From a virus, in the IMG/VR virus record IMGVR_UViG_3300028883_000032, positions 142,857 through 206,856 of that record: 64,000 bases of DNA; one strand, 5' to 3'. Of this stretch, positions 2,434-16,912 are shown in pieces. Numbering within the stretch: position 1 is the first letter of the stretch; each line of letters begins with the position of its first letter. Made by a program: the position numbers and the translations under genes. The notes beneath the pieces are model-generated. The model was not told where the DNA came from and did no database searches. It saw only the letters and a program-made list of their open reading frames with translations.

Positions 2434-2842
2434 ATACAGCCCCTTTTCAAACTTTTCGTTTCATACTGTTGCTCTTGAAAACATTGTTTTTCCTACAGGT
2501 GAACATGCTTTTCAATGTTATAAGGCAAAAACGGAAGATGGTTTTGATGCTGTGTTGGAGGCACCAACCCCAAGTAATGCAAAGCGCATAGCTCGCCAAA
2601 TTGATATGCGTGACGACTGGGAAGAGGTAAAAGATGAAGTCATGTACAACGTCATTAAGGCAAAGGTAGAACAGCACCGAGATGTTAAGGAACTGTTACT
2701 TTCCACGGGAGACGAAGAAATACAAGAAGGAAATACTTGGGGAGACGAATATTGGGGAGTCTCCTTACCGTCTGGCAGGGGCCGAAACCAACTTGGAAAA
2801 ACGTGGATGCGGGTAAGAAGGGAGTTACAAAATGCCCAATAA
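2411..2842 (+). CDS. NADAR (YbiA-like) N-glycosidase domain protein, 143 aa
   Basis: Has the NADAR fold signature: FRGKYSPFSNFSF near the N-terminus, GEHAFQCYKAK near 30-41, and YWGVSLPSGRGRNQLGKTWM near the C-terminus. NADAR proteins cleave N-glycosidic bonds, either in riboflavin-pathway intermediates (YbiA) or ADP-ribose linked to guanine, which would undo DarT-type DNA modification. Overlaps the Nudix gene by 11 nt, so the two are probably co-translated. A counter-defence role is inference. Confidence 0.88.
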   Translation: MIRQFRGKYSPFSNFSFHTVALENIVFPTGEHAFQCYKAKTEDGFDAVLEAPTPSNAKRIARQIDMRDDWEEVKDEVMYNVIKAKVEQHRDVKELLLSTGDEEIQEGNTWGDEYWGVSLPSGRGRNQLGKTWMRVRRELQNAQ

Positions 2843-3314
2843 AATAACTTGCGCTACCTTCATAATACATGATGGTTCAGTGGGAAAAGAGGTGCTTCTT
2901 GTACAACCTACAGAAAAACCATTTTGGGAACCACCGAAGGGGATTAAGGATGTTGGAGAAAATATAAATGATGCAGCCATGAGAGAAGTTTTTGAGGAAA
3001 CCGGTATCCAACTTCAGCATGACGCATTAATCCATTTAGGAAGATACCCGTATTTAGTGGGAAAGGATATAGCGTTTTTTATGGCTTGTGGCTATAACGA
3101 GCTATTAAGGGCGCAGGAAAGGGTATGTAGAAGCTACTTCTATAAATTTGGAGAAGGGTTCATACCGGAAATCCAAAATTCTGCATGGTTTCAACTTTCC
3201 CAAGTAAAGCATCTTGTCACGGCAAACATGTTAAAAGCCATGAAGTTAATGGCGGAAAGTGTAAAACATCAAAATGAGAAAATTAGTAAGTATACAGAGA
3301 GTTTGGTCAGTTGA
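2832..3314 (+). CDS. Nudix hydrolase, 160 aa
   Basis: A complete Nudix box runs from Gly37 to Ile59 (G-x5-E-x7-REV-x-EE-x-GI), which coordinates Mg2+ and cleaves nucleoside diphosphates linked to another moiety. PFWEPPKG just before the box is typical of the family. Substrate is unknown; ADP-ribose or a dinucleotide is plausible given the adjacent NADAR gene. The 3' end overlaps exon 1 of the RNA ligase by 41 nt in another frame. Confidence 0.9.
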   Translation: MPNKITCATFIIHDGSVGKEVLLVQPTEKPFWEPPKGIKDVGENINDAAMREVFEETGIQLQHDALIHLGRYPYLVGKDIAFFMACGYNELLRAQERVCRSYFYKFGEGFIPEIQNSAWFQLSQVKHLVTANMLKAMKLMAESVKHQNEKISKYTESLVS

Positions 3315-3375
3315 ACCGATTGAGGGCTCTGACTTTATTGAAAAAATAAAAGTCCTTGGGTGGACTTTAGTGGCT
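3274..3375 (+). CDS. RNA ligase (DRB0094/Rnl5 type), exon 1
   Basis: Encodes 34 residues (MRKLVSIQRVWSV...GWTLVA) that match the N-terminus of DRB0094-type RNA ligases, and then meets an in-frame TAA at 3376-3378. The missing continuation, RKGEFKKGDLCVY, is found at 5734. Joining 3375 to 5734 restores the family's GW-x-V-x-RKGEF-x-x-GD core without a frame break and gives a 360-residue enzyme. The exon ends in AGTGGCT, which pairs with GGTCACT in the intron (P1, U-G at the splice site). The start overlaps the Nudix gene. Confidence 0.85.
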
Positions 3376-3532
3376 TAATTCTGGGTCACTTTAAACTCGC
3401 TCAATTGCTGGAAAGCTAAACCGCAGCAAACACCGTGGTAGGCCGATCAGCAGCCAGAGGTTATGGCGACATAGTCAAATGGTTCAGAGACTTATCAAAG
3501 TACTTGGCAGAGGAAATGGTAGAATTGATAGA

Positions 3533-3808
3533 ATGAAAATGAAAACTTATAAACTAAAAGTACAGATTTTTGATAGTAAAAATCGCCCAAAATCAGATTT
3601 AAAGACAATTGCAAAATTTGATTCTAAATATGTATTAGCAAAATATATTGACACTTATAGTAAAGTAAAAAGGCTGACTGTAAATACTGTTCACACCGCA
3701 GATGGTAGCAAAATAATAAAAGGCCCAAAGCTTTTATACTTTGACGAAAATGATAATATACATGAGCTATCTATCGAAGTTCAGGAAGATGGTGGTTGTG
3801 ATGTATAG
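3533..3808 (+). CDS. intron-encoded hypothetical protein, 91 aa
   Basis: Start chosen at ATG 3533, after the intron R element; an ATG at 3479 would translate the catalytic core of the ribozyme and is unlikely. AGAGGAAA lies about 16 nt upstream. The protein is Lys-rich with no known motif and no nuclease signature. It overlaps the next gene by eight bases. Confidence 0.5.
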   Translation: MKMKTYKLKVQIFDSKNRPKSDLKTIAKFDSKYVLAKYIDTYSKVKRLTVNTVHTADGSKIIKGPKLLYFDENDNIHELSIEVQEDGGCDV

Positions 3809-4037
3809 TAAATTCATAGTTGTCTTGTTTAAAACAGAATATAGTTTTACTGTGCATGTTAACAAAGACTTTTTTACAGTTAGTTTTGAATGGGAATCTA
3901 AATATATTGATTGCTTCAAAGGGTATGACAATATTGTAGGGGTTGAATTAAATTTTAAGAACAGGTATTTCTCCGCATATTGTCATATAAAAAACAAAAT
4001 TTATAGCTTCACTTTTCCCCAAAATAATGAGGAATAA
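3801..4037 (+). CDS. intron-encoded hypothetical protein, 78 aa
   Basis: ATG 3801 is chosen over an in-frame ATG at 3741 that lies deep in the previous gene. The sequence is rich in Phe, Tyr and Val in alternating patterns and is probably all beta. No family recognised. It lies within the group I intron insert. Confidence 0.45.
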   Translation: MYSKFIVVLFKTEYSFTVHVNKDFFTVSFEWESKYIDCFKGYDNIVGVELNFKNRYFSAYCHIKNKIYSFTFPQNNEE

Positions 4038-4069
4038 GATAGTAACCATAAAACTAACTGGGGTAAAAC

Positions 4070-4498
4070 ATGGCAGAGGAACAGGTGTTTTCTAACATTG
4101 GTAGAAAATGTTTGTTGGTGATCATGGTAATACTGTGCGGTGTTCAATTCGTGTATTCCCAGGATGCCATTAAAGTATCCGAAGATCGCGGCATAACCGC
4201 AGTGCAGTGCCTGTTGGCGTATCATGGGTATTTTACGTTCGCAGAATATGCAACTGGCAAATACAACAAAGTCACCGATTTGGCACTTAAACTCCACCTA
4301 ATAAAAAATGGCATTGATCCCCATGACGAGGTTATATGCCGGAGATTTATATACCAATCTGTCATGAAATACAAAGAATTTGTTGATTCGTCGCTAGTAT
4401 CGACAGCTTTTAAGAAAAGAGTTAACGAAAGTCTGCGAGGGGTTACTCCTTTCAACATCATAAGTGAAGAGTCTATTTGGGTTCTTGAGGAGGATTAA
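4070..4498 (+). CDS. intron-encoded protein with an N-terminal membrane or signal segment, 142 aa
   Basis: Residues 13-29 (CLLVIMVILCGVQFVYS) are strongly hydrophobic after a short charged N-terminus, either a signal peptide cut near YSQ or a membrane anchor. The remaining ~110 residues are soluble and partly helical. GGGG nine bases before ATG may serve as ribosome binding site. Function unknown; unusual cargo for a group I intron. Confidence 0.55.
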   Translation: MAEEQVFSNIGRKCLLVIMVILCGVQFVYSQDAIKVSEDRGITAVQCLLAYHGYFTFAEYATGKYNKVTDLALKLHLIKNGIDPHDEVICRRFIYQSVMKYKEFVDSSLVSTAFKKRVNESLRGVTPFNIISEESIWVLEED

Positions 4499-4499
4499 A

Positions 4500-4679
4500 G
4501 TGACTCTGGAAGAAAAGTTAAAGTCAGAGACTACGGGGATGCTTCAACAAATACTGTCTTCCATTAAATTCTGCATTCGAAACAACTTGTACTCTTGGAT
4601 TTCTCCAGGGCCTTACGGGTGTCCCACCATGGAGGACTGGTACTTGGAAGTCGAAGCAGAAGTTAATCAGAGGGCCTAG
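4500..4679 (+). CDS. intron-encoded hypothetical protein, 59 aa (GTG start)
   Basis: GTG 4500 has a good Shine-Dalgarno (GGAGG) seven to eight bases upstream and directly follows the previous stop, so it is preferred over an ATG at 4464 inside the previous gene. Contains WISPGPYGCPTMEDWYLEVE but no known motif. Its stop codon lies inside a rho-independent terminator. Confidence 0.55.
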   Translation: MTLEEKLKSETTGMLQQILSSIKFCIRNNLYSWISPGPYGCPTMEDWYLEVEAEVNQRA

Positions 4680-4688
4680 CCCTCTTTT
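4669..4688 (+). terminator. rho-independent terminator overlapping a stop codon
   Basis: AGAGGGC (4669-4675), loop CTA, GCCCTCT (4679-4685) followed by T-run. The TAG stop of the preceding gene is the loop. It would stop transcription inside the group I intron, limiting production of the spliced ligase mRNA unless read through. Confidence 0.75.
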
Positions 4689-4701
4689 AACCAAAAAAAT
4701 C

Positions 4702-4998
4702 ATGAAAGTAAAGCACGAAACAATAATACCTATAGGTTCCCCATTAGTGATGACAGGTTTGCATGAAATCACCGGAGGTCCTTGGGAATGCACAGAAGAA
4801 ACATTTAACTCCGTTGCCCTGCAAATTATAAACAGACAACGCGAGAACTGCGGACTTGAATGTATTGACAAGCTTCCGGTATTAAGGGAAGTTGAAGATA
4901 TTCAAAAGGCTATTATTCCTCATGTGGATAAAAGGTTATTATATGAAGCTGACGGGTTAGTTGTCAGGTTTGATTTTGACTTGGGAAATTGGGAGTAG
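4702..4998 (+). CDS. intron-encoded hypothetical protein, 98 aa
   Basis: Preceded by AACCAA seven nt before ATG and by no Shine-Dalgarno. Contains paired Cys and Trp residues (GGPWECTEE, ENCGLEC) without a zinc spacing. No family recognised. It follows a terminator, so it probably depends on read-through or an unseen promoter. Confidence 0.5.
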   Translation: MKVKHETIIPIGSPLVMTGLHEITGGPWECTEETFNSVALQIINRQRENCGLECIDKLPVLREVEDIQKAIIPHVDKRLLYEADGLVVRFDFDLGNWE

Positions 4999-5030
4999 TT
5001 TCACTCATTTTTATTTAACCAAAAAAAGAA

Positions 5031-5411
5031 ATGGCAAAAAAAATAAATACCGAGCCTAGAACCATAACCGTAAAATTAAAAGAAAGTGGAGAAACAGTCC
5101 ACCATATTTTAGAGTGTGGCAGTATTGATGAGTCTATTGACTTTTTACAAGATATTAAAAATAAATATCCTGAAATGTTCAATATAAGAATAGAAATTGA
5201 AAGCGAACCTGATTATTATGACAATGTTTATCAATATGTTAATTTTTATGGATCTAGGCTAGAAACAGCAGACGAAGTTGCTAAAAGAATTGGAATTGAA
5301 GAAGAGGCTGCTCGAAAGATAAGAGACCAAAGAAAAGCTAAAAAGAAAAAAACTGAAGAAGAGCAGCGGGCACTGTATGAAAAACTAAAAGAAAAGTTTG
5401 GGGATAAATAA
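5031..5411 (+). CDS. intron-encoded protein with charged helical C-terminus, 126 aa
   Basis: AACCAA lies eight nt before the start. The first 80 residues are mixed alpha/beta; residues ~85-126 form a highly charged Lys/Glu helix (AKKKKTEEEQRALYEKLKEK), a likely coiled coil. Stop and next start overlap (TAATG). No known family. Confidence 0.55.
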   Translation: MAKKINTEPRTITVKLKESGETVHHILECGSIDESIDFLQDIKNKYPEMFNIRIEIESEPDYYDNVYQYVNFYGSRLETADEVAKRIGIEEEAARKIRDQRKAKKKKTEEEQRALYEKLKEKFGDK

Positions 5412-5602
5412 TGTCAATAGAAATAAGTGATATTGCATTAGATATGATTATAGATAAGAAATTTGTTGGAAAAACATTAAAAGAAGTATTAAAAAGTACA
5501 CCAAAATATGAACACGAACACTTCTTAAAACATCTTGAGTACGCAGAAGAAACAGTTAATAATTGGCCTGAGTGGAAAAAAATGCATATGATGCTACAGT
5601 AG
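5411..5602 (+). CDS. intron-encoded hypothetical protein, 63 aa
   Basis: Translationally coupled to the previous gene by TAATG. Helical, charged, ends in KKMHMMLQ. This is the last gene before the 3' catalytic part of the group I intron. No motif recognised. Confidence 0.5.
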   Translation: MSIEISDIALDMIIDKKFVGKTLKEVLKSTPKYEHEHFLKHLEYAEETVNNWPEWKKMHMMLQ

Positions 5603-5733
5603 AAGAAAAAATATTTACGAAGAATAAATAATGGAAATTATCAATTAACACGGCGAGCTCTCGGTAGGTGCTGCCACACTGGTGACCGAGATGAAGGTAT
5701 AGTCCACGCCTGCATGAAAATGTAGGGTTAGTG

Positions 5734-6714
5734 AGGAAAGGGGAATTCAAAAAAGGTGATTTGTGTGTCTATTGCGAAATAGATTCCATCTTACCAGAAC
5801 GCGAAGAATTTGAATTCCTACGCAGCAAAAAGTTTAGAATAAAAACACAGAAGATTCGTGGGATATTGAGTCAGGGAATAGCTTTTCCCATTTCAGTGTT
5901 GAATAAAGGAAAAAGCGAAGTAATCGTGGAACTGGTATCCAGTGATGATTCCAAAGATCCAGACCCATATATACACGTAGATGACGATTCAGGCCATGGG
6001 TCGGGCTCCACTTTCTTCTTGGGTGACGACGTAACTGCGTATTTAGGGGTAAAAAAGTATGAAGTCCCTATACAGTTTAAACAAGGCCAGTCCGCGGGGA
6101 ACTTCCCAGCTTTTATACATAAAACAGATGAGACCCGCATACAGACCTGTATAGAATGCTTGGAGGAGCTACATGGTAAGCCGTATTACATAACCACAAA
6201 AGTAGATGGAACTTCAGGAACATTTTATAGGAAAGACGACCACTTTGGGGTATGCTCGAGGAATTTCGAGAAAAAAGAAGGACAAAGCGTGTATTGGGAA
6301 GTCGCAAAAAAATACGACCTCAAATCCAAGTTGGAGAACTACGGCAAGGACGTTGCTATACAAGGAGAACTTGCGGGGCCGGGAATTCAAAAGAACAGGC
6401 TTGGGTTGGAAAGCACATCATTGTTTGTATTCAACATACAGGATATTTCGAAAGGTTGCTTTTTATCCTTCAACGAGGTCAAAGACCTTTGTAATGCCCT
6501 AGGTATCAACATGGTTCCCATTCTAGAAGAAGGTGAACACTTCAATTATACTTTTGAGCAACTTTTGGAATTAGCAGAACACAAGTACCTCAATGGGAGT
6601 CATGCCGAAGGTATTGTGATAAGACCACAAGTGGAAGAATATTCTCGTACCTTACACGGTAGGCTATCATTTAAAGTTATCAACAATAAGTTTCTGTTAA
6701 AAGGCGGGGATTAA
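5734..6714 (+). CDS. RNA ligase (DRB0094/Rnl5 type), exon 2
   Basis: Encodes residues 35-360 of the spliced enzyme. After RKGEFKKGDLCVYCEIDS comes the EFEFLRSKKFRIKTQKIRG segment typical of this family. The nucleotidyltransferase motif I is KVDGTS (Lys near spliced residue 190, the adenylated lysine), motif IV is EGIVIRP near 332-338 and motif V is SFKVIN near 349. The enzyme seals RNA 3'-OH/5'-phosphate nicks by an AMP intermediate. A GTG at 5731 could be mistaken for a start but is the last codon-sized unit of the intron. RNA repair against host nucleases is the likely role. Confidence 0.88.
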   Translation, partial: RKGEFKKGDLCVYCEIDSILPEREEFEFLRSKKFRIKTQKIRGILSQGIAFPISVLNKGKSEVIVELVSSDDSKDPDPYIHVDDDSGHGSGSTFFLGDDVTAYLGVKKYEVPIQFKQGQSAGNFPAFIHKTDETRIQTCIECLEELHGKPYYITTKVDGTSGTFYRKDDHFGVCSRNFEKKEGQSVYWEVAKKYDLKSKLENYGKDVAIQGELAGPGIQKNRLGLESTSLFVFNIQDISKGCFLSFNEVKDLCNALGINMVPILEEGEHFNYTFEQLLELAEHKYLNGSHAEGIVIRPQVEEYSRTLHGRLSFKVINNKFLLKGGD

Positions 6715-6825: not shown

Positions 6826-6844
6826 GTAGTAACCAAAATTTGCC

Positions 6845-7192
6845 ATGTCGCAATATGTATATTTTATAGAAGCGACAGGACTTAATCGAGTTAAAATAGG
6901 CTATGCTACAAATCCAACAAAACGAATAAAGGACCTTGATACCGGAAGTGCGGTAAATTTGGAGTTGTTGGGAGTTGTTCCCGGCTCTTTGGCCAAGGAG
7001 CGCCAACTTCACCAAAAGTTCGCGCAGTATCGCATTAAAGGAGAATGGTTCAATTATAGCGACGAAATAAAGGATTACGTAAAAGAGAATACTTCGTTAG
7101 AGTTGCAACAGCCTAAAAAACCGCAGACATTTAATAAAGCTAATGCTGACATGTTTAAGGCGCTTGTAGCCTTGAGGATTCTCTCATCGTAG
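6845..7192 (+). CDS. GIY-YIG-like nuclease of the T5orf172/MUG113 type, 115 aa
   Basis: YVYFIEA near residue 4, VKIGYATNPTKRIKDLDTG near 17-36, an RQLHQKF helix near 59 and GEWFNY near 69-74 follow the T5orf172 order (modified GIY-YIG, Arg, His, Glu). This family holds DNA endonucleases of phages, including homing-type enzymes. It stands directly after exon 2 of the intron-split ligase and could act for that intron in trans. AACCAA lies eight nt before ATG. Confidence 0.8.
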   Translation: MSQYVYFIEATGLNRVKIGYATNPTKRIKDLDTGSAVNLELLGVVPGSLAKERQLHQKFAQYRIKGEWFNYSDEIKDYVKENTSLELQQPKKPQTFNKANADMFKALVALRILSS

Positions 7193-7947: not shown

Positions 7948-8310
7948 GGGCTCGACTGGAATCGACGGGTGGATATTGAGAATTGGTTGCGTTACTAGTC
8001 CTGTCAAGGACGATAATCCATGACAATCGATAACTGGCGAAACTCCAGTCCTTAAGGCTGCCTAATCCTTCGGGATTATGCACATAAAAGCCACGTTGAC
8101 CGAATCCGATTCCCGTTAGGGTTCGAATCAACGTCGAAAATACGGGATGCTGTCTTACAGGCCTCGCTATAAGACATAAGATTTAGAGGATGGGTAGGGG
8201 TGATGAAAGTCTGGTGCCTGATCCCCGCCGAGATGAAATATCCAGACTAGGTAACGTAGACGCTAATTCTTGAGCCTCTCCGGACCCGGGTTCGAATCCC
8301 GGCGAGTCCA
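7948..8310 (+). ncRNA. ssrA: transfer-messenger RNA (tmRNA)
   Basis: The 5' end GGGCTCG (7948-7954) pairs with CGAGTCC (8303-8309) as the acceptor stem. CTGGAATCGACGGG follows, as in bacterial tmRNAs, and the 3' end has the T arm CCGGG-TTCGAAT-CCCGG. The tag frame GGC...TAA at 8036-8065 reads GETPVLKAA, followed by a CTAATCC-TTCG-GGATTA-type hairpin. CCA is not encoded (ACTA). It rescues stalled ribosomes and tags their products. The Gly start of the tag resembles Bacteroidota tmRNAs. Confidence 0.92.
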
Positions 8311-8312
8311 CT

Positions 8313-10758: not shown

Positions 10759-10773
10759 CAGGTAGCTTTTTTT
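10747..10773. terminator. bidirectional terminator between convergent genes
   Basis: AGCTACC (10748-10754), loop, GGTAGCT (10761-10767) and seven T on the + strand. The NYN gene ends within it and the RNA polymerase gene ends at 10772 from the other side. The minus-strand T-run is weak. Confidence 0.8.
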
Positions 10774-13700
10774 ACCAGAATACTCCCTTTTCAGGATCAA
10801 ACTGTGTAGCAAACTCGTTTGCATATAAGTATGCTGGCATGGGGTCATAGCCGTGTATATTTGTTTTGCTTGCTTTTGCTGCAGAGTCTTGAATAACCAT
10901 TTTGATGTTATTACTAGTAACACGGCTTAACCAGTCGTCCCGTTCATGTGGTAAAACATTTATACTCTTGAAATAAGGTTTATATTCTATTTGTGGAAGC
11001 CCTTCTGCTTTTCTCTCTTTATTTTCCTTATCAACTACAGTTTTAAAAACTGTATCCCCCTTTATAAACCTTGAGTTATCTGGAGCATTTGTAATATAAG
11101 CGTTATCGCTTATACCCCTGATTATAGTTTCGAATGTACGCTTGTGGAATTTTCCGTCGTAAACGTTATCCATCCTATCCACAAGAGATTTTTGAGCAGT
11201 AATGAAGTCTGTTAATTCCGCTAATTCTTGCGGTTTTTTTGTACCAGTACTTATAGGTTCTCCACGAGTAACTATATCGTCTATTTTAACCAGCAAGTCT
11301 CTTCCTGGTTTTACGTGGTGAAGTTTTGGACTATTACCATCTCCCATAATGGCAACTTCCCAACCTCCCGCCATTCCGGGTTTTATATTTATTACCCTAC
11401 CTTCTATTTGTGCAAGTTCCGCTTTTCCTGGTAAAATTGCCGGGACCTTTACAGTACGCTCTAATTCTGGGAATCCCGCTGTCACTCCTCCACCGGCTAG
11501 AGCGCTTCCCCCAGAGTGGAAAGTTTGCATGGTCAATTGTGTTGCTCTTTCAGATACAGCCTGTCCGTCTAAAACTCCAGCATTATAACCAATTTGTGGC
11601 AATTTTCCTTCAGGGGTTAGCCCATAACAAAAAGCACACATACCTCGTTCTGTTTCACAAGTTAGAGGGCTTCTAACCTTTATTAAACTGTTACCCAGTT
11701 TTTTAACCAAGTCAGGGTGGATTAAAGCCGTAATAGTATCCCCTACTTCTACCACTCCCGGCACTCTTTGCTGGCTTATACGCCCTATAACGTTTTTGTC
11801 ACTAGCAGATAACTCTATTCCATTTGTTGTACCACAATCTTGTTCGGTTATAAGCACGTCCTTCAGATTAGTTAAAAGCGCCTTATTTAAGGCACCAGTA
11901 TCTTGTGTGTTTACGGCGCGATCAACGGTGCCTTTTCTTGCAGAATACATGTGGTTCCAGAATGAAAAGTCGTCTACTCCCTCTGCCCAGGATTTTTCAA
12001 CAGGAGTGGGGATTGGGCGCCCCTTAACATCCAAAAGAACCCCAGGCATGGTTAGTACTTGCCTAATACTGTCTGGTTTTCCCTGTGATCCAGAATCAAG
12101 CATGTGGAAAAACCTATTATCGCTTTTACGCGCATTTTCATATAATTCTTTTTGAACTTTCTTGGAAGCTTCGTTATATATTTCAGCACGTTCCAGTGGA
12201 GTTTGGACACGGTTTGCTTTTTTGTGAGCAATTTCCATAATAGGACCACGAGCACTACGGTCCATATCCAAGTCCGTTATACTCAAAGTTATAGGTTTAC
12301 GATAAGAGTATTCTTTTCCAAGCTCTTTAAAGTGGTTCATCACCTCAGCAAACTTTTTAGGATGCCTATCGCTTATTTCCTTCATTATACGCTTAACCGT
12401 GTCAGCATCAAATACTAATGTTCTGTCTTTTAAGTCCTCCGGAAGCTTTTCTAAAACAAGCTCCTTACCGTAAGTTGTACGCCCTACTCCTGTTAATTCA
12501 ACTTCCTCCGCTTCGTCAAGTTTGCCGTCTCTAACATCATCAGCCATTTTTTTGAATGTGCTATATTTTTTGCCATCATATTTTCTATCCACTTTTGTAA
12601 GATACCAAAGACCTTGTTGAAATATTTGACTAAATGAGCCAATGATGGGCATAACAGGATCATCAAAATGGGGCCCATGTTGATAAATGTTTTTAGAAGG
12701 AATCATGCCAAACGCTTCACGAACGGCATCAGTGGATACAGGCACATTAACTGACATGGCGTCACCGTCAAAGTCCGCATTAAAACCCTTAACAATAAGA
12801 GGATTTAATTTAATAGCTTGGCCATCAATGCGCTTTGGTATTGCAGCTTGTACACTATGTTTATGTAACGATGGAGCACGATTAAGTAGTACTGGTCTGT
12901 TCTCCATGGCCAAGTCTATTCCACGCAGGCCAAGTTCTGTTTCTTCTTGAATTTCCTTACGTGCAGTCAGGGGACTGTGACCACGTTTGGTCAGCTCCTG
13001 TACGGCAAATGGAAGATAAATTTCTTTTGCCATTCCTGTGGGAATTCCTACCTCGTCTACTCCCAAGTTTGGATCAAGTGTAATGGTGCTGCGAGCAGAA
13101 AGATCCTGTCGTTTGCTCCAGACATTACTTTGTATAAAACCTTCTTTAGGTTCGGACCCAGATAGTGTGCGTAAGGCCCCCTCGTATTTTTCTTTCCCAA
13201 AGTGGGTTAGTTCTGTTAATCCCTGTAACTCCTTAAAATGATCGTAAAGCGACTTACGCACTTCATCAACTTTTATTTTCTCTGTGCCAATTTCCTTATC
13301 GCTAGCTAGGCCATCGTTAAGTTTCGATATGTCCCTATAATGATAATTAATTGGACTTACCATTAAATCACCGGAAGGTAATGGGTAAACTGGCCTAAAT
13401 ACTGGAGGCATGACTGGAATTTTATTTGTGGTATAGGCTTCTTCCGCTGTCATTCCTAGTTTATCTAGAGCTTCTAAGTATCGTACGCGCTTATTAAGTT
13501 TATTTACGCGTGACTCCGGTGCGGTTTTTAATTCATTTTTTGATTCCTGTAATTCTTTTTTTACATCTATAGCACGTAGGTCAGTAATTATTTTATCTAT
13601 TCCACCCTCTTCCCCTTTAAGGCGCGCCTCATACTGAGGGCGGGTAATACCAAGCAATGATTGGATTGCTTTTTCATACATTGGAGAAGGCATGGTATCA

Positions 13701-16700
13701 GTTAATTCTATGTGGCTCCATTTTGTACCTCCATGTCCTCCGGTAATTTTTGAGTCAAACAACCCGCCTTTTAAAGTTGCTAAATTTTTACCCATTAGCA
13801 TTTGTCCGGCATCGTCTAATTTACCGGCACTAATTTCAGATATTTTTTTATCCGTCAAAGGCATTAACTGAATTTCATTACCCTTTTTTTCACTATCAAC
13901 CCCGGCGGCCTTCATGTAGGCTACCATTTTATCAAATACAAAAGATTTTTGGGGAGTTGGTAGTGGCAAACCTAATTGTATTGCTCTCCACAGCTCATCA
14001 TTCTTTTGTGATTTTATAGCAGTGAAATCTCTTAAATTGTGTTTTGCACCATGCGCTAGGAGAACATATGTTTGCATAGGATCGACGGATTGTCCCCCAG
14101 ACTCTCCTCTACCGGGAGCCTCATTTACATTGTAGGAACCATAACTACGGCTTTTTTCTTTATGTTCAACCACATGCATTAGTTTTAGTATGTACTGAGG
14201 ACCAGTAAATACTTTCGATTTAAGAGGCTTACCGTCTTTGCCATCTAATACCACCTCGTCAGGTTCAATTCCTTGTTTTTTAAGTTCGTTAAGGAGTATG
14301 TTTAATTTGTCCTTACCATCGAAATTACGAATGACGTAAGGTTTACCTGTTTTTTCAGCAATTTTAGCCGCTGCTGTTTCTAACAATTGTGAGGGATTCA
14401 TTCTAGAAGGTATTCCAAACGGAGACATTATCATGTCTACACGCTTACCACTAGCGGTATGTGGAGCCTCCTCGTCAGGTATGATCTTAACAACAATCCC
14501 TTTACCACCGTATCTGTTGGCTAGTTTGTCTCCCTCCACTAATGGGTGACTTACTTTCACACGAACTACAATTTTACGGCCCATTTTAGAAACATACATT
14601 ACTTCCCCGGGCTCATCAAAATCATATACAACACTCCGGTCGTCATATAATTTAGACACCTTACGGTTCATATTCTTTAGTATTCTCTGTTCGTCGGTCA
14701 TTTCTCTTGGTTCAAGGTGTGCTATGAGTACATCACCCTTTTTAACTCTTTCACCTTCTTTTATAATTCCTTCCGAATCAAGTTTATTATAACTTCCAGT
14801 ATTTATAAAGGCACCTGGATATTCAGCGGCAAGCTTATCCTTATTAAAAATACCATTAGTGGTTCTATGCGAAGTATAATTGTGCAGACTAGAATGTGTA
14901 AACTTTTTAGCAAACGAATCTGTTACCACCAACCCGTCTTCAAATGAATAGCCCTTGTAAGGCATATAAGCTACTTGGACATTTGCGCCAAGACCTAATG
15001 TCTTTTTTCCACCAAAAGGTGGCTCAGCTTCAAAGTTATTTTTTGCTAATTCTTGTTTGGCCTTAACTACATCACCCGGTTTAACAGTAGGAGTACTGTG
15101 CAAGAACGACTCTTGGTTCATTGGAAAATAGTTATACAGCCCTATTTTAAGGCTTTTTGACTCCCCTTCAGGTTTTATATGAATGTAGTCAGGTGTTACT
15201 TTAGTTACAACACCTGATTTAATGTCGTCGGGAACATATGGATTAAGATAGTCACCAATCGACTCATCAAAACTTTTATCGATTAATGGCCGACCAACTT
15301 GTACTAGAGGAGCTTCCCCATTATCAATGGTAAAAGCTTGTGAAGTGTTTTTAGCAGCCATTAGTGCCCTGTTTCCTTGGGTATGTTCTAAAAATGGCGT
15401 TAAGTTTGTTGGCCACCCAAACAGAGATTGAGGTTTAATGATGTAGCCATCAACATCTTTATGGGCAAAAACTTCTGCTTTTCCCTTATTATATCCCCGT
15501 ATTACCCTTTTTGTAAAGTCCCCGTCATGTGGTATTGGTTTTCCATTTTTTAAGACATACTGCTCACCAAAACCAACTCTCATGTTCCACAACTCATGCG
15601 GAGAGACGTACTTAATATCACCGTCTTTCATAATTACGGGAGTTGTCATCTGTCCTTTACTGTTTTTTTCAACAAACAGACTCAAAGGAAGAGAAATCCC
15701 CACTTTGGAACTATCCGGAGTTTGTACAGGATCAAGAAATCCAATATGAGACGGATGGACGTTACGGGTTTCCATGGTTACCTCATGCATGGAAGGTATT
15801 CCTCCCGTACCTAATACTGAAGTTTTTCTCCATTCTGATAATATTGAGACTGGGTTCGTTTGAGGAGGTGTCGCACTAAGGTCACTTGTAGTAAAGAAAC
15901 TTTTTATGGGCTTACTATAAGTATCTGGACTTATAATATCCCTAATCTGATCCTTTCTGTCCGTACGGAAACGTAAATTACCTGTAATTTGTTTGTCCTT
16001 TTTTTCAAGAAAGAACCCGAGTAGATCATCCACAGTCATGAGGGACTTAAATACTAGCGAGTCACGCTCATCAGGATCTGCATCACCGCGTTGGACAGCC
16101 AGTAACTTTTTACTAACATCCATTAACGTATCTTTATTAACTTTTTTGTGTGATGCACCCAAAGTTATCAGTGTTGTATCTGGGTCGACTGCGGTTGTCT
16201 CAAAGTACTCATATAACATCTTTTTTGCTTCTTGTGGGGTTTTTGGTTTTTGATGTAAAACCTTTTCCACAAGGTTGACCCACATATCGGGCTCTTCTCC
16301 TTTATCGCTATTTTTGGCATAAAGGTCCTTGCCCCACAACTCAAGCATTTCTTGGTCTGTTACACCCAACGCCTTAAGAATGTTGTACAGTCTATAATTT
16401 TGATTCCCAGCACGCAATAGAAAAATTCCTTTTGTCGGGTCTAAAGTAAGTTTAAAATTAAAACCCTTTGCAAGATTAAATTGGGATTCAAAGTCACCAT
16501 TATCTTTCATGCGTGTATATATACCAGACTTAAGGCGCAACTGATTTGTTGTTTGGTATTCATTGCCGTCAATAATAGCACTAAATCTTTGTGTTTGTTT
16601 AGGTATATTGGCTATTTTTATTTTAGGTTTTTCATCAACAATGTCCCCTGTTTTTTTGTCGACAAGTCTTAAATGTCCGTAAACTGGAACAGACCAAGTA

Positions 16701-16912
16701 CTACCACTAACTTTGGCTTTCTTTTGGGCTGGAAGATCGTTTGTGGGGGCGTCCTCGTCCCCTATGTCCAAACTAATCAATTCCAATTTTTTATTTTGTG
16801 CATCAATGGGGTATTGATTGGATATAAAATTACCAATTACATCATAAATTTTAGAATTTTGAACATTAGGATTTAATGAGTCTTTTAATTCTCTGTCTGC
16901 ATTCCTCATCAT
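10772..16912 (-). CDS. single-chain fused RNA polymerase beta-beta' subunit, 2046 aa
   Basis: One uninterrupted frame holds both large subunits. The beta-like part (~1-1010) contains PFLEHTQGNRALM, MPYKGYSFEDG (650-660), a GDKLANRYGGKGIV segment, PFGIPSRMNPSQLLET and the C-terminal GSYNVNEAP...GESGGQ region. The beta'-like part (~1060-2046) has PVMPPVFRPVYPL, the catalytic NADFDGDAM (1378-1386, three Asp bind Mg2+), bridge-helix SARKG (1657-1661), the zinc cysteines C1693, C1752, C1759, C1762 and QLTMQTFHSGG. It is about 700 residues shorter than E. coli beta plus beta'; the beta' N-terminal zinc site is not seen. No alpha or omega gene is present here. The start is preceded by GGGAGAA. It presumably transcribes phage promoters with the sigma factor encoded at 41250-42002. 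Confidence 0.95.
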   Translation of the reverse strand: MMRNADRELKDSLNPNVQNSKIYDVIGNFISNQYPIDAQNKKLELISLDIGDEDAPTNDLPAQKKAKVSGSTWSVPVYGHLRLVDKKTGDIVDEKPKIKIANIPKQTQRFSAIIDGNEYQTTNQLRLKSGIYTRMKDNGDFESQFNLAKGFNFKLTLDPTKGIFLLRAGNQNYRLYNILKALGVTDQEMLELWGKDLYAKNSDKGEEPDMWVNLVEKVLHQKPKTPQEAKKMLYEYFETTAVDPDTTLITLGASHKKVNKDTLMDVSKKLLAVQRGDADPDERDSLVFKSLMTVDDLLGFFLEKKDKQITGNLRFRTDRKDQIRDIISPDTYSKPIKSFFTTSDLSATPPQTNPVSILSEWRKTSVLGTGGIPSMHEVTMETRNVHPSHIGFLDPVQTPDSSKVGISLPLSLFVEKNSKGQMTTPVIMKDGDIKYVSPHELWNMRVGFGEQYVLKNGKPIPHDGDFTKRVIRGYNKGKAEVFAHKDVDGYIIKPQSLFGWPTNLTPFLEHTQGNRALMAAKNTSQAFTIDNGEAPLVQVGRPLIDKSFDESIGDYLNPYVPDDIKSGVVTKVTPDYIHIKPEGESKSLKIGLYNYFPMNQESFLHSTPTVKPGDVVKAKQELAKNNFEAEPPFGGKKTLGLGANVQVAYMPYKGYSFEDGLVVTDSFAKKFTHSSLHNYTSHRTTNGIFNKDKLAAEYPGAFINTGSYNKLDSEGIIKEGERVKKGDVLIAHLEPREMTDEQRILKNMNRKVSKLYDDRSVVYDFDEPGEVMYVSKMGRKIVVRVKVSHPLVEGDKLANRYGGKGIVVKIIPDEEAPHTASGKRVDMIMSPFGIPSRMNPSQLLETAAAKIAEKTGKPYVIRNFDGKDKLNILLNELKKQGIEPDEVVLDGKDGKPLKSKVFTGPQYILKLMHVVEHKEKSRSYGSYNVNEAPGRGESGGQSVDPMQTYVLLAHGAKHNLRDFTAIKSQKNDELWRAIQLGLPLPTPQKSFVFDKMVAYMKAAGVDSEKKGNEIQLMPLTDKKISEISAGKLDDAGQMLMGKNLATLKGGLFDSKITGGHGGTKWSHIELTDTMPSPMYEKAIQSLLGITRPQYEARLKGEEGGIDKIITDLRAIDVKKELQESKNELKTAPESRVNKLNKRVRYLEALDKLGMTAEEAYTTNKIPVMPPVFRPVYPLPSGDLMVSPINYHYRDISKLNDGLASDKEIGTEKIKVDEVRKSLYDHFKELQGLTELTHFGKEKYEGALRTLSGSEPKEGFIQSNVWSKRQDLSARSTITLDPNLGVDEVGIPTGMAKEIYLPFAVQELTKRGHSPLTARKEIQEETELGLRGIDLAMENRPVLLNRAPSLHKHSVQAAIPKRIDGQAIKLNPLIVKGFNADFDGDAMSVNVPVSTDAVREAFGMIPSKNIYQHGPHFDDPVMPIIGSFSQIFQQGLWYLTKVDRKYDGKKYSTFKKMADDVRDGKLDEAEEVELTGVGRTTYGKELVLEKLPEDLKDRTLVFDADTVKRIMKEISDRHPKKFAEVMNHFKELGKEYSYRKPITLSITDLDMDRSARGPIMEIAHKKANRVQTPLERAEIYNEASKKVQKELYENARKSDNRFFHMLDSGSQGKPDSIRQVLTMPGVLLDVKGRPIPTPVEKSWAEGVDDFSFWNHMYSARKGTVDRAVNTQDTGALNKALLTNLKDVLITEQDCGTTNGIELSASDKNVIGRISQQRVPGVVEVGDTITALIHPDLVKKLGNSLIKVRSPLTCETERGMCAFCYGLTPEGKLPQIGYNAGVLDGQAVSERATQLTMQTFHSGGSALAGGGVTAGFPELERTVKVPAILPGKAELAQIEGRVINIKPGMAGGWEVAIMGDGNSPKLHHVKPGRDLLVKIDDIVTRGEPISTGTKKPQELAELTDFITAQKSLVDRMDNVYDGKFHKRTFETIIRGISDNAYITNAPDNSRFIKGDTVFKTVVDKENKERKAEGLPQIEYKPYFKSINVLPHERDDWLSRVTSNNIKMVIQDSAAKASKTNIHGYDPMPAYLYANEFATQFDPEKGVFW

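Follow-up and report, generated by a model that had tools for sequence, protein, structure and literature searches.

The window analysed here (a stretch of 64,000 nucleotides, positions 142,857 to 206,856 of a virus record of 206,856 bp; coordinates count from its first letter unless stated otherwise) carries an RNA ligase gene whose two parts are separated by a predicted group I intron filled with small open reading frames (ORFs). The ligase ATG at 3274 lies inside the 3' end of a NUDIX gene (2832-3314). Exon 1, which ends at T3375, reads ...GWTLVA and is followed by TAA as the next DNA codon; the frame resumes at 5734 with RKGEFKKGD, and the segments 3274-3375 and 5734-6714, once joined, form a single open frame of 360 aa.

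3274-3375, plus strand: first exon of the RNA ligase gene, whose 34 codons (MRKLVSIQRVWSVEPIEGSDFIEKIKVLGWTLVA) begin the OB-fold domain; PF21189 covers residues 4-87 of the spliced protein.
3376-5733, plus strand: IA-like group I intron (P7.1 and P7.2 present), 2,358 nt, identified by leave-one-out covariance model, helix check and covariation.
5734-6714, plus strand: second exon of the RNA ligase gene, with 326 codons (981 nt, fully open) and the KVDG motif of the nucleotidyl-transfer lysine.

The predicted spliced protein matched the Pfam OB-fold family PF21189 (E = 5.9e-31) and RNA ligase family PF09414 (E = 5.9e-30), and was matched over its whole length by the RNA ligase family PHROG 968 (E = 2.3e-70); with an N-terminal OB-fold domain and an RNA ligase domain containing KxDG, it has the make-up of an Rnl5-type RNA ligase. 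The closest solved protein was the Naegleria gruberi RNA ligase (5cot, E = 2.1e-55), a member of the Rnl5 family together with Deinococcus DRB0094, which shares the OB-fold and nucleotidyltransferase domains and aligns colinearly and without a gap over the junction, whereas its own gene is uninterrupted. Uninterrupted relatives of the ligase, 39-44% identical to it, were found in twelve viral contigs, together with a distant relative that shares 23%. Nine of these genes were aligned (L006, L009-L013, L016-L018), and the junction was gap-free and colinear with all of them (in L017, WDLVA runs directly into RKGEFKKGD); the alignment of the spliced protein with uninterrupted ligases, at about 40% identity, continues through the junction, and the junction adjoins a GEFKKGD motif invariant in these nine relatives. 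An earlier sequence-only reading of this DNA had placed the insertion exactly here, between GWTLVA and RKGEFKKGD at 5734, and had suggested comparison with an intronless relative; the open joined frame, the nine uninterrupted genes and 5cot, all continuous over the junction, agree with that placement. Its description of the product as a DRB0094-type ligase of 360 aa is also supported by the Pfam and 5cot matches, the nearest solved relative being the Naegleria enzyme. In a six-frame ORF listing, exon 2 appeared as an ORF of 327 aa that begins with GTG at 5731, the very annotation hazard of which the same reading had warned.

The elements of the predicted ribozyme lie at both ends of the intervening sequence:

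3369-3390, plus strand: P1 (3369-3375, AGTGGCT, with 3384-3390, GGTCACT), with a U.G pair at the splice site.
3379-3382 with 5734-5737, plus strand: P10, by base-by-base check.
3396-3476, plus strand: 5' core, comprising the P3 5' strand (3396-3401), P4 (3406-3411/3447-3452), P5 (3415-3417/3441-3443), the P6 5' strand (3453-3456) and P6a (3459-3465/3470-3476).
3480-3492, plus strand: P6 3' strand (3480-3483) and P7 5' strand (GACT, 3489-3492, the R element), by coordinate check.
3523-3530, plus strand: P7.2 5' strand, AATTGATA, pairing with 5639-5646, all the ORFs lying in the loop between.
5639-5657, plus strand: P7.2 3' strand (5639-5646) and P3 3' strand (GGCGAG, 5652-5657), by consensus fold and coordinate check.
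5660-5726, plus strand: 3' part of the intron, comprising P8 (5660-5665/5685-5690), the P7 3' strand (AGTC, 5701-5704, the S element) and P9 (5709-5715/5720-5726, GAAA loop).

Checked base by base, P1, P10, P3, P4, P5, P6, P6a, P7, P7.2, P8 and P9 are all intact, with T3375.G3384 as the 5' splice site pair and 5733 as the terminal G. The P7 guanosine-binding helix with its R and S elements, together with P3, P4, P6 and P8, is that of a group I intron, and the presence of P7.1 and P7.2 between P7 and the P3 3' strand is the mark of subgroup IA; P7.2 has 8 bp with covariation, while P7.1 is predicted in the consensus and pairs more weakly in the window. A covariance model built from six aligned rtcB introns of Bacillus and Bacillus phages, with the window excluded, recovered both intron ends: 3402-3560 scored 68.7 bits (E = 1.8e-20), and 5554-5728 scored 45.6 bits (E = 4.7e-13). 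In an RNAalifold consensus of seven sequences (window included), compensatory change, defined as both sides changed with pairing kept in at least one sequence, occurred in 29 of 69 pairs, among them pairs in P3, P7.2, P8 and P9; the rows are related, and these figures are counts, not independent events. The window's own compensatory changes in P7.2 are A-U to G-C and U-A to A-U. Rfam scans gave no relevant match at the gathering threshold, nor did a local scan of 3250-5850 at E 10, and in a search of the virus's own genome RF00028 scored 21.2 bits at the intron (E = 3.2e-4; cut-off 50 bits), apparently owing to the 2.1 kb that lies between the intron halves. Taken together, independent homology, covariation and the covariance model built without the window bear out the earlier proposal of a group I intron in the ligase gene, including its length of 2,358 nt and the placing of P1, the R and S elements and the terminal G. 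We thus regard 3376-5733 as confirmed to be a group I intron within a 360-aa Rnl5-type RNA ligase gene, from which it would be removed by splicing.

The same core was found in other introns. Searching with 3440-3493, blastn identified Bacillus phages Goe20 and CM1, Proteus phage PM135 and Providencia phage PR1, the interrupted gene being rtcB in the Bacillus cases and DNA polymerase in PM135 and PR1. Pattern scans located the intron in additional viral contigs and in four chromosomes of the Bacillus group, the sequence flanking the compact copies again reading as rtcB; two more scans for introns with the same core gave no new locus. One compact Bacillus intron (L028) scored 49.9 bits against Rfam Intron_gpI (E = 7.2e-12), where the cut-off is 50. 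The rtcB introns of Bacillus and Bacillus phages (L002 from Goe20, L003 from CM1, L019, L020, L028-L031) share with the window the core sequence, the helices, the P7.2 ORF slot and an RNA ligase as host gene. They differ in that rtcB encodes an unrelated ligase and that P7.2 either is a hairpin with a short loop (L020, L028) or holds a single ORF of HNH type, 164 or 170 aa long (CM1, Goe20), with no row of ORFs; HNH was assigned to these two ORFs by eye from a histidine and cysteine pattern, Pfam finding nothing in them. The Demerecviridae DNA polymerase introns (PM135, PR1) have recognisably the same P3-P7 core, yet differ in having no ORF in P7.2 and a single LAGLIDADG gene in P8 (in PR1, and in PM135 by the same placement). 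Goe20 also carries a second group I intron just downstream of its rtcB intron (L002 2987-3234, RF00028 72.2 bits), in surroundings annotated as hypothetical proteins only.

The P7.2 loop of the window (3531-5638) is occupied by about seven small ORFs, all on the plus strand, which overlap or are separated by gaps of at most 32 bases and of which the sequence-only reading made no mention:

3533-3808, plus strand: ORF 1, 91 aa, with its ATG two bases into the P7.2 loop; codon score above all shadow ORFs.
3801-4037, plus strand: ORF 2, 78 aa; codon score not distinctive.
4070-4498, plus strand: ORF 3, 142 aa, with a hydrophobic N-terminal stretch; codon score not distinctive.
4500-4679, plus strand: ORF 4, 59 aa, GTG start after GAGGAGG; codon score not distinctive.
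4702-4998, plus strand: ORF 5, 98 aa, preceded by a TTTAACCAAAAAAA leader.
5031-5411, plus strand: ORF 6, 126 aa, preceded by a TTTAACCAAAAAAA leader like ORF 5.
5411-5602, plus strand: ORF 7, 63 aa, overlapping the ORF 6 stop by one base.

Plus-strand ORFs of at least 55 codons cover 95.7% of 3536-5602, against 47% for the opposite strand, and none of 1000 dinucleotide shuffles reached that coverage (mean 8%, maximum 44%). Codon use was phage-like in ORFs 1, 5, 6 and 7, with ORFs 6 and 7, like ORF 1, scoring above every shadow ORF and ORF 5 above 98% of them; the scores of ORFs 2-4 were also attained by 16-27% of shadow ORFs. Searches of Pfam, PHROGs and NCBIfam gave no convincing family match for any of the seven, no homing-endonuclease domain and no transposase, and the recognisable endonuclease gene that usually marks a homing intron was absent from all of them in these libraries. 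They were not similar to the endonuclease ORFs carried by related introns; searches of viral contigs turned up no relative of ORF 3 or ORF 6, tblastn against phages with ORFs 1, 3, 5, 6 and 7 returned nothing meaningful, ORF 6 was absent from eight contigs with uninterrupted ligases in which it was looked for, and the virus record held no second copy of ORF 3 or ORF 6. PDB matches to ORFs 3 and 6 were weak and were judged to be chance, and single-sequence AlphaFold models (pLDDT 54 for ORF 6, 43 for ORF 5) were too poor for use. Promoter-like sites in the region numbered 16, against 11.6 (sd 3.4) in shuffles, and we therefore claim no internal promoter; no convincing repeats, the mark of a nested element, flank the cargo. 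Across the 207-kb record, the TAACCAAAA leader followed by ATG has six occurrences, compared with two for a reversed-pattern control; three of the six fall in a 2.2-kb stretch (4688-4704, 5016-5033, 6830-6847), where they precede ORF 5, ORF 6 and the GIY-YIG-type gene after the ligase.

That gene is a free-standing T5orf172/MUG113 (GIY-YIG-type) gene at 6845-7192, directly 3' of the ligase. Elsewhere, the virus has a tmRNA gene (7948-8311, tag GETPVLKAA) and, on the minus strand at 10772-16912, a single 2046-aa ORF with RNA polymerase beta and beta-prime domains; a pattern search of viral contigs for such a fused RNA polymerase gave no match and no near relative of the virus. Group I introns also interrupt two tRNA genes of this virus. 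One (667 nt) splits a tRNA-Ser(UGA) (L036 2544-3300, G000:C1:61500-68500), scores 49.2 bits for RF00028, just under the cut-off, and has an HNH-like ORF at 2608-3039. The other (790 nt, RF00028 71.1 bits, with an antisense ORF inside) interrupts a tRNA (L035 2290-3177, G000:C1:6500-13500) that by eye is probably tRNA-Leu(UAA), the junction placement by ARAGORN leading to a SeC call.

We interpret the locus, with a probability of about 0.78, as an rtcB-lineage intron that interrupts an Rnl5-type ligase gene and would be spliced from it, the old endonuclease slot being taken by about seven phage genes and the homing gene probably having been lost. Among the alternatives, it is possible, though unlikely, that this is an ordinary mobile intron in which one of the cargo ORFs is the homing endonuclease, either diverged or of a new family, and the remaining small ORFs were added later. 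ORF-bearing group I introns usually encode endonucleases (PMC3984707), the P7.2 slot holds HNH-type ORFs in the Bacillus-phage relatives, and ORFs 1, 6 and 7 combine a strong coding signal with no known fold; however, no HNH, GIY-YIG, LAGLIDADG or PD-(D/E)XK match appeared in the three libraries, and at 59-142 aa the ORFs are small for most homing endonucleases. It seems improbable that the intron is mobilised in trans, as in collaborative homing, by the product of the 6845-7192 gene: this gene starts 130 bp past exon 2, matches MUG113, T5orf172 and a PHROG named homing endonuclease, and has the TAACCAAAA leader in common with ORFs 5 and 6, but phages commonly have T5orf172/MUG113 proteins with no link to introns, no cleavage site is known for its product, and tblastn found no copy of it beside uninterrupted ligase genes. 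That the ligase gene is dead, its decayed intron broken by the cargo insertion and no longer splicing, is highly improbable, since although the P7 halves and the P3 halves lie 2.1 kb apart and splicing is inferred from sequence, every core helix is intact, P7.2 retains compensatory changes, the 981 nt of exon 2 form an uninterrupted frame that encodes ligase motifs, and the exons meet exactly.

Under the preferred reading of an rtcB-lineage intron with phage cargo, an intron of the Bacillus and Bacillus-phage lineage would have come to interrupt the phage ligase at a highly conserved OB-fold motif, with its ribozyme core (P1, P10, P3-P9) folding from both intron ends. Guanosine-initiated self-excision, as expected from group I intron biology, would then join the exons into the 360-aa ligase. 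Phage genes would have entered the vacant P7.2 slot with the ribozyme kept, and the cargo would presumably be translated from the unspliced transcript, from the excised intron or from internal promoters. Since the ancestral homing gene was probably lost, the intron would be inherited with the phage and would not home by itself.

The usual view of group I introns in phages is that they either lack genes or bring a homing gene with them. Huge gut (Jug) phages are rich in group I introns, and RNA reads have confirmed that some of these are spliced (PMC12363816); gp210 of PhiPA3 is likewise split by one (PMC11620839). Because such intron-rich huge phages are known, a split gene alone is ordinary. 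These cases resemble ours in that phage genes, there essential ones, are split by group I introns, but the intervening genes reported there encode endonucleases or intein-type proteins. Group I introns tolerate long peripheral loops, since an ORF placed in a loop can leave the core undisturbed (PMC3984707). Non-homing genes within a group I intron are found in IStrons, in which an IS transposon joined to an intron is made harmless by splicing (PMC4227781); unlike these, the cargo ORFs described here match no transposase family. Fungal mitochondria likewise house an ordinary gene, not an endonuclease, in a group I intron, the intronic rps3 of an rRNA gene (e.g. PMC5529405), although that is one known ribosomal-protein gene as against about seven phage ORFs here. 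Our literature search found no phage group I intron described as holding several genes other than endonucleases, which does not prove their absence, and, with about a dozen related introns sampled, a multi-gene P7.2 loop was seen in one genome only. The multi-gene content is, as far as these comparisons indicate, the unusual part of the intron.

A wider interpretation, which we put forward as rather doubtful, is that the intron acts as a splicing-silent cassette, its peripheral loop collecting rows of accessory phage genes and carrying them harmlessly into conserved genes, so that intron and genes travel together. For annotation, the locus is a pitfall in which exon 1 is lost, exon 2 is taken for a truncated gene and the intron is missed by a standard Rfam scan. 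If the loop is indeed filled with small, ordinary-looking genes, as its sequence suggests, then accessory genes could be housed in an intron within a conserved gene.
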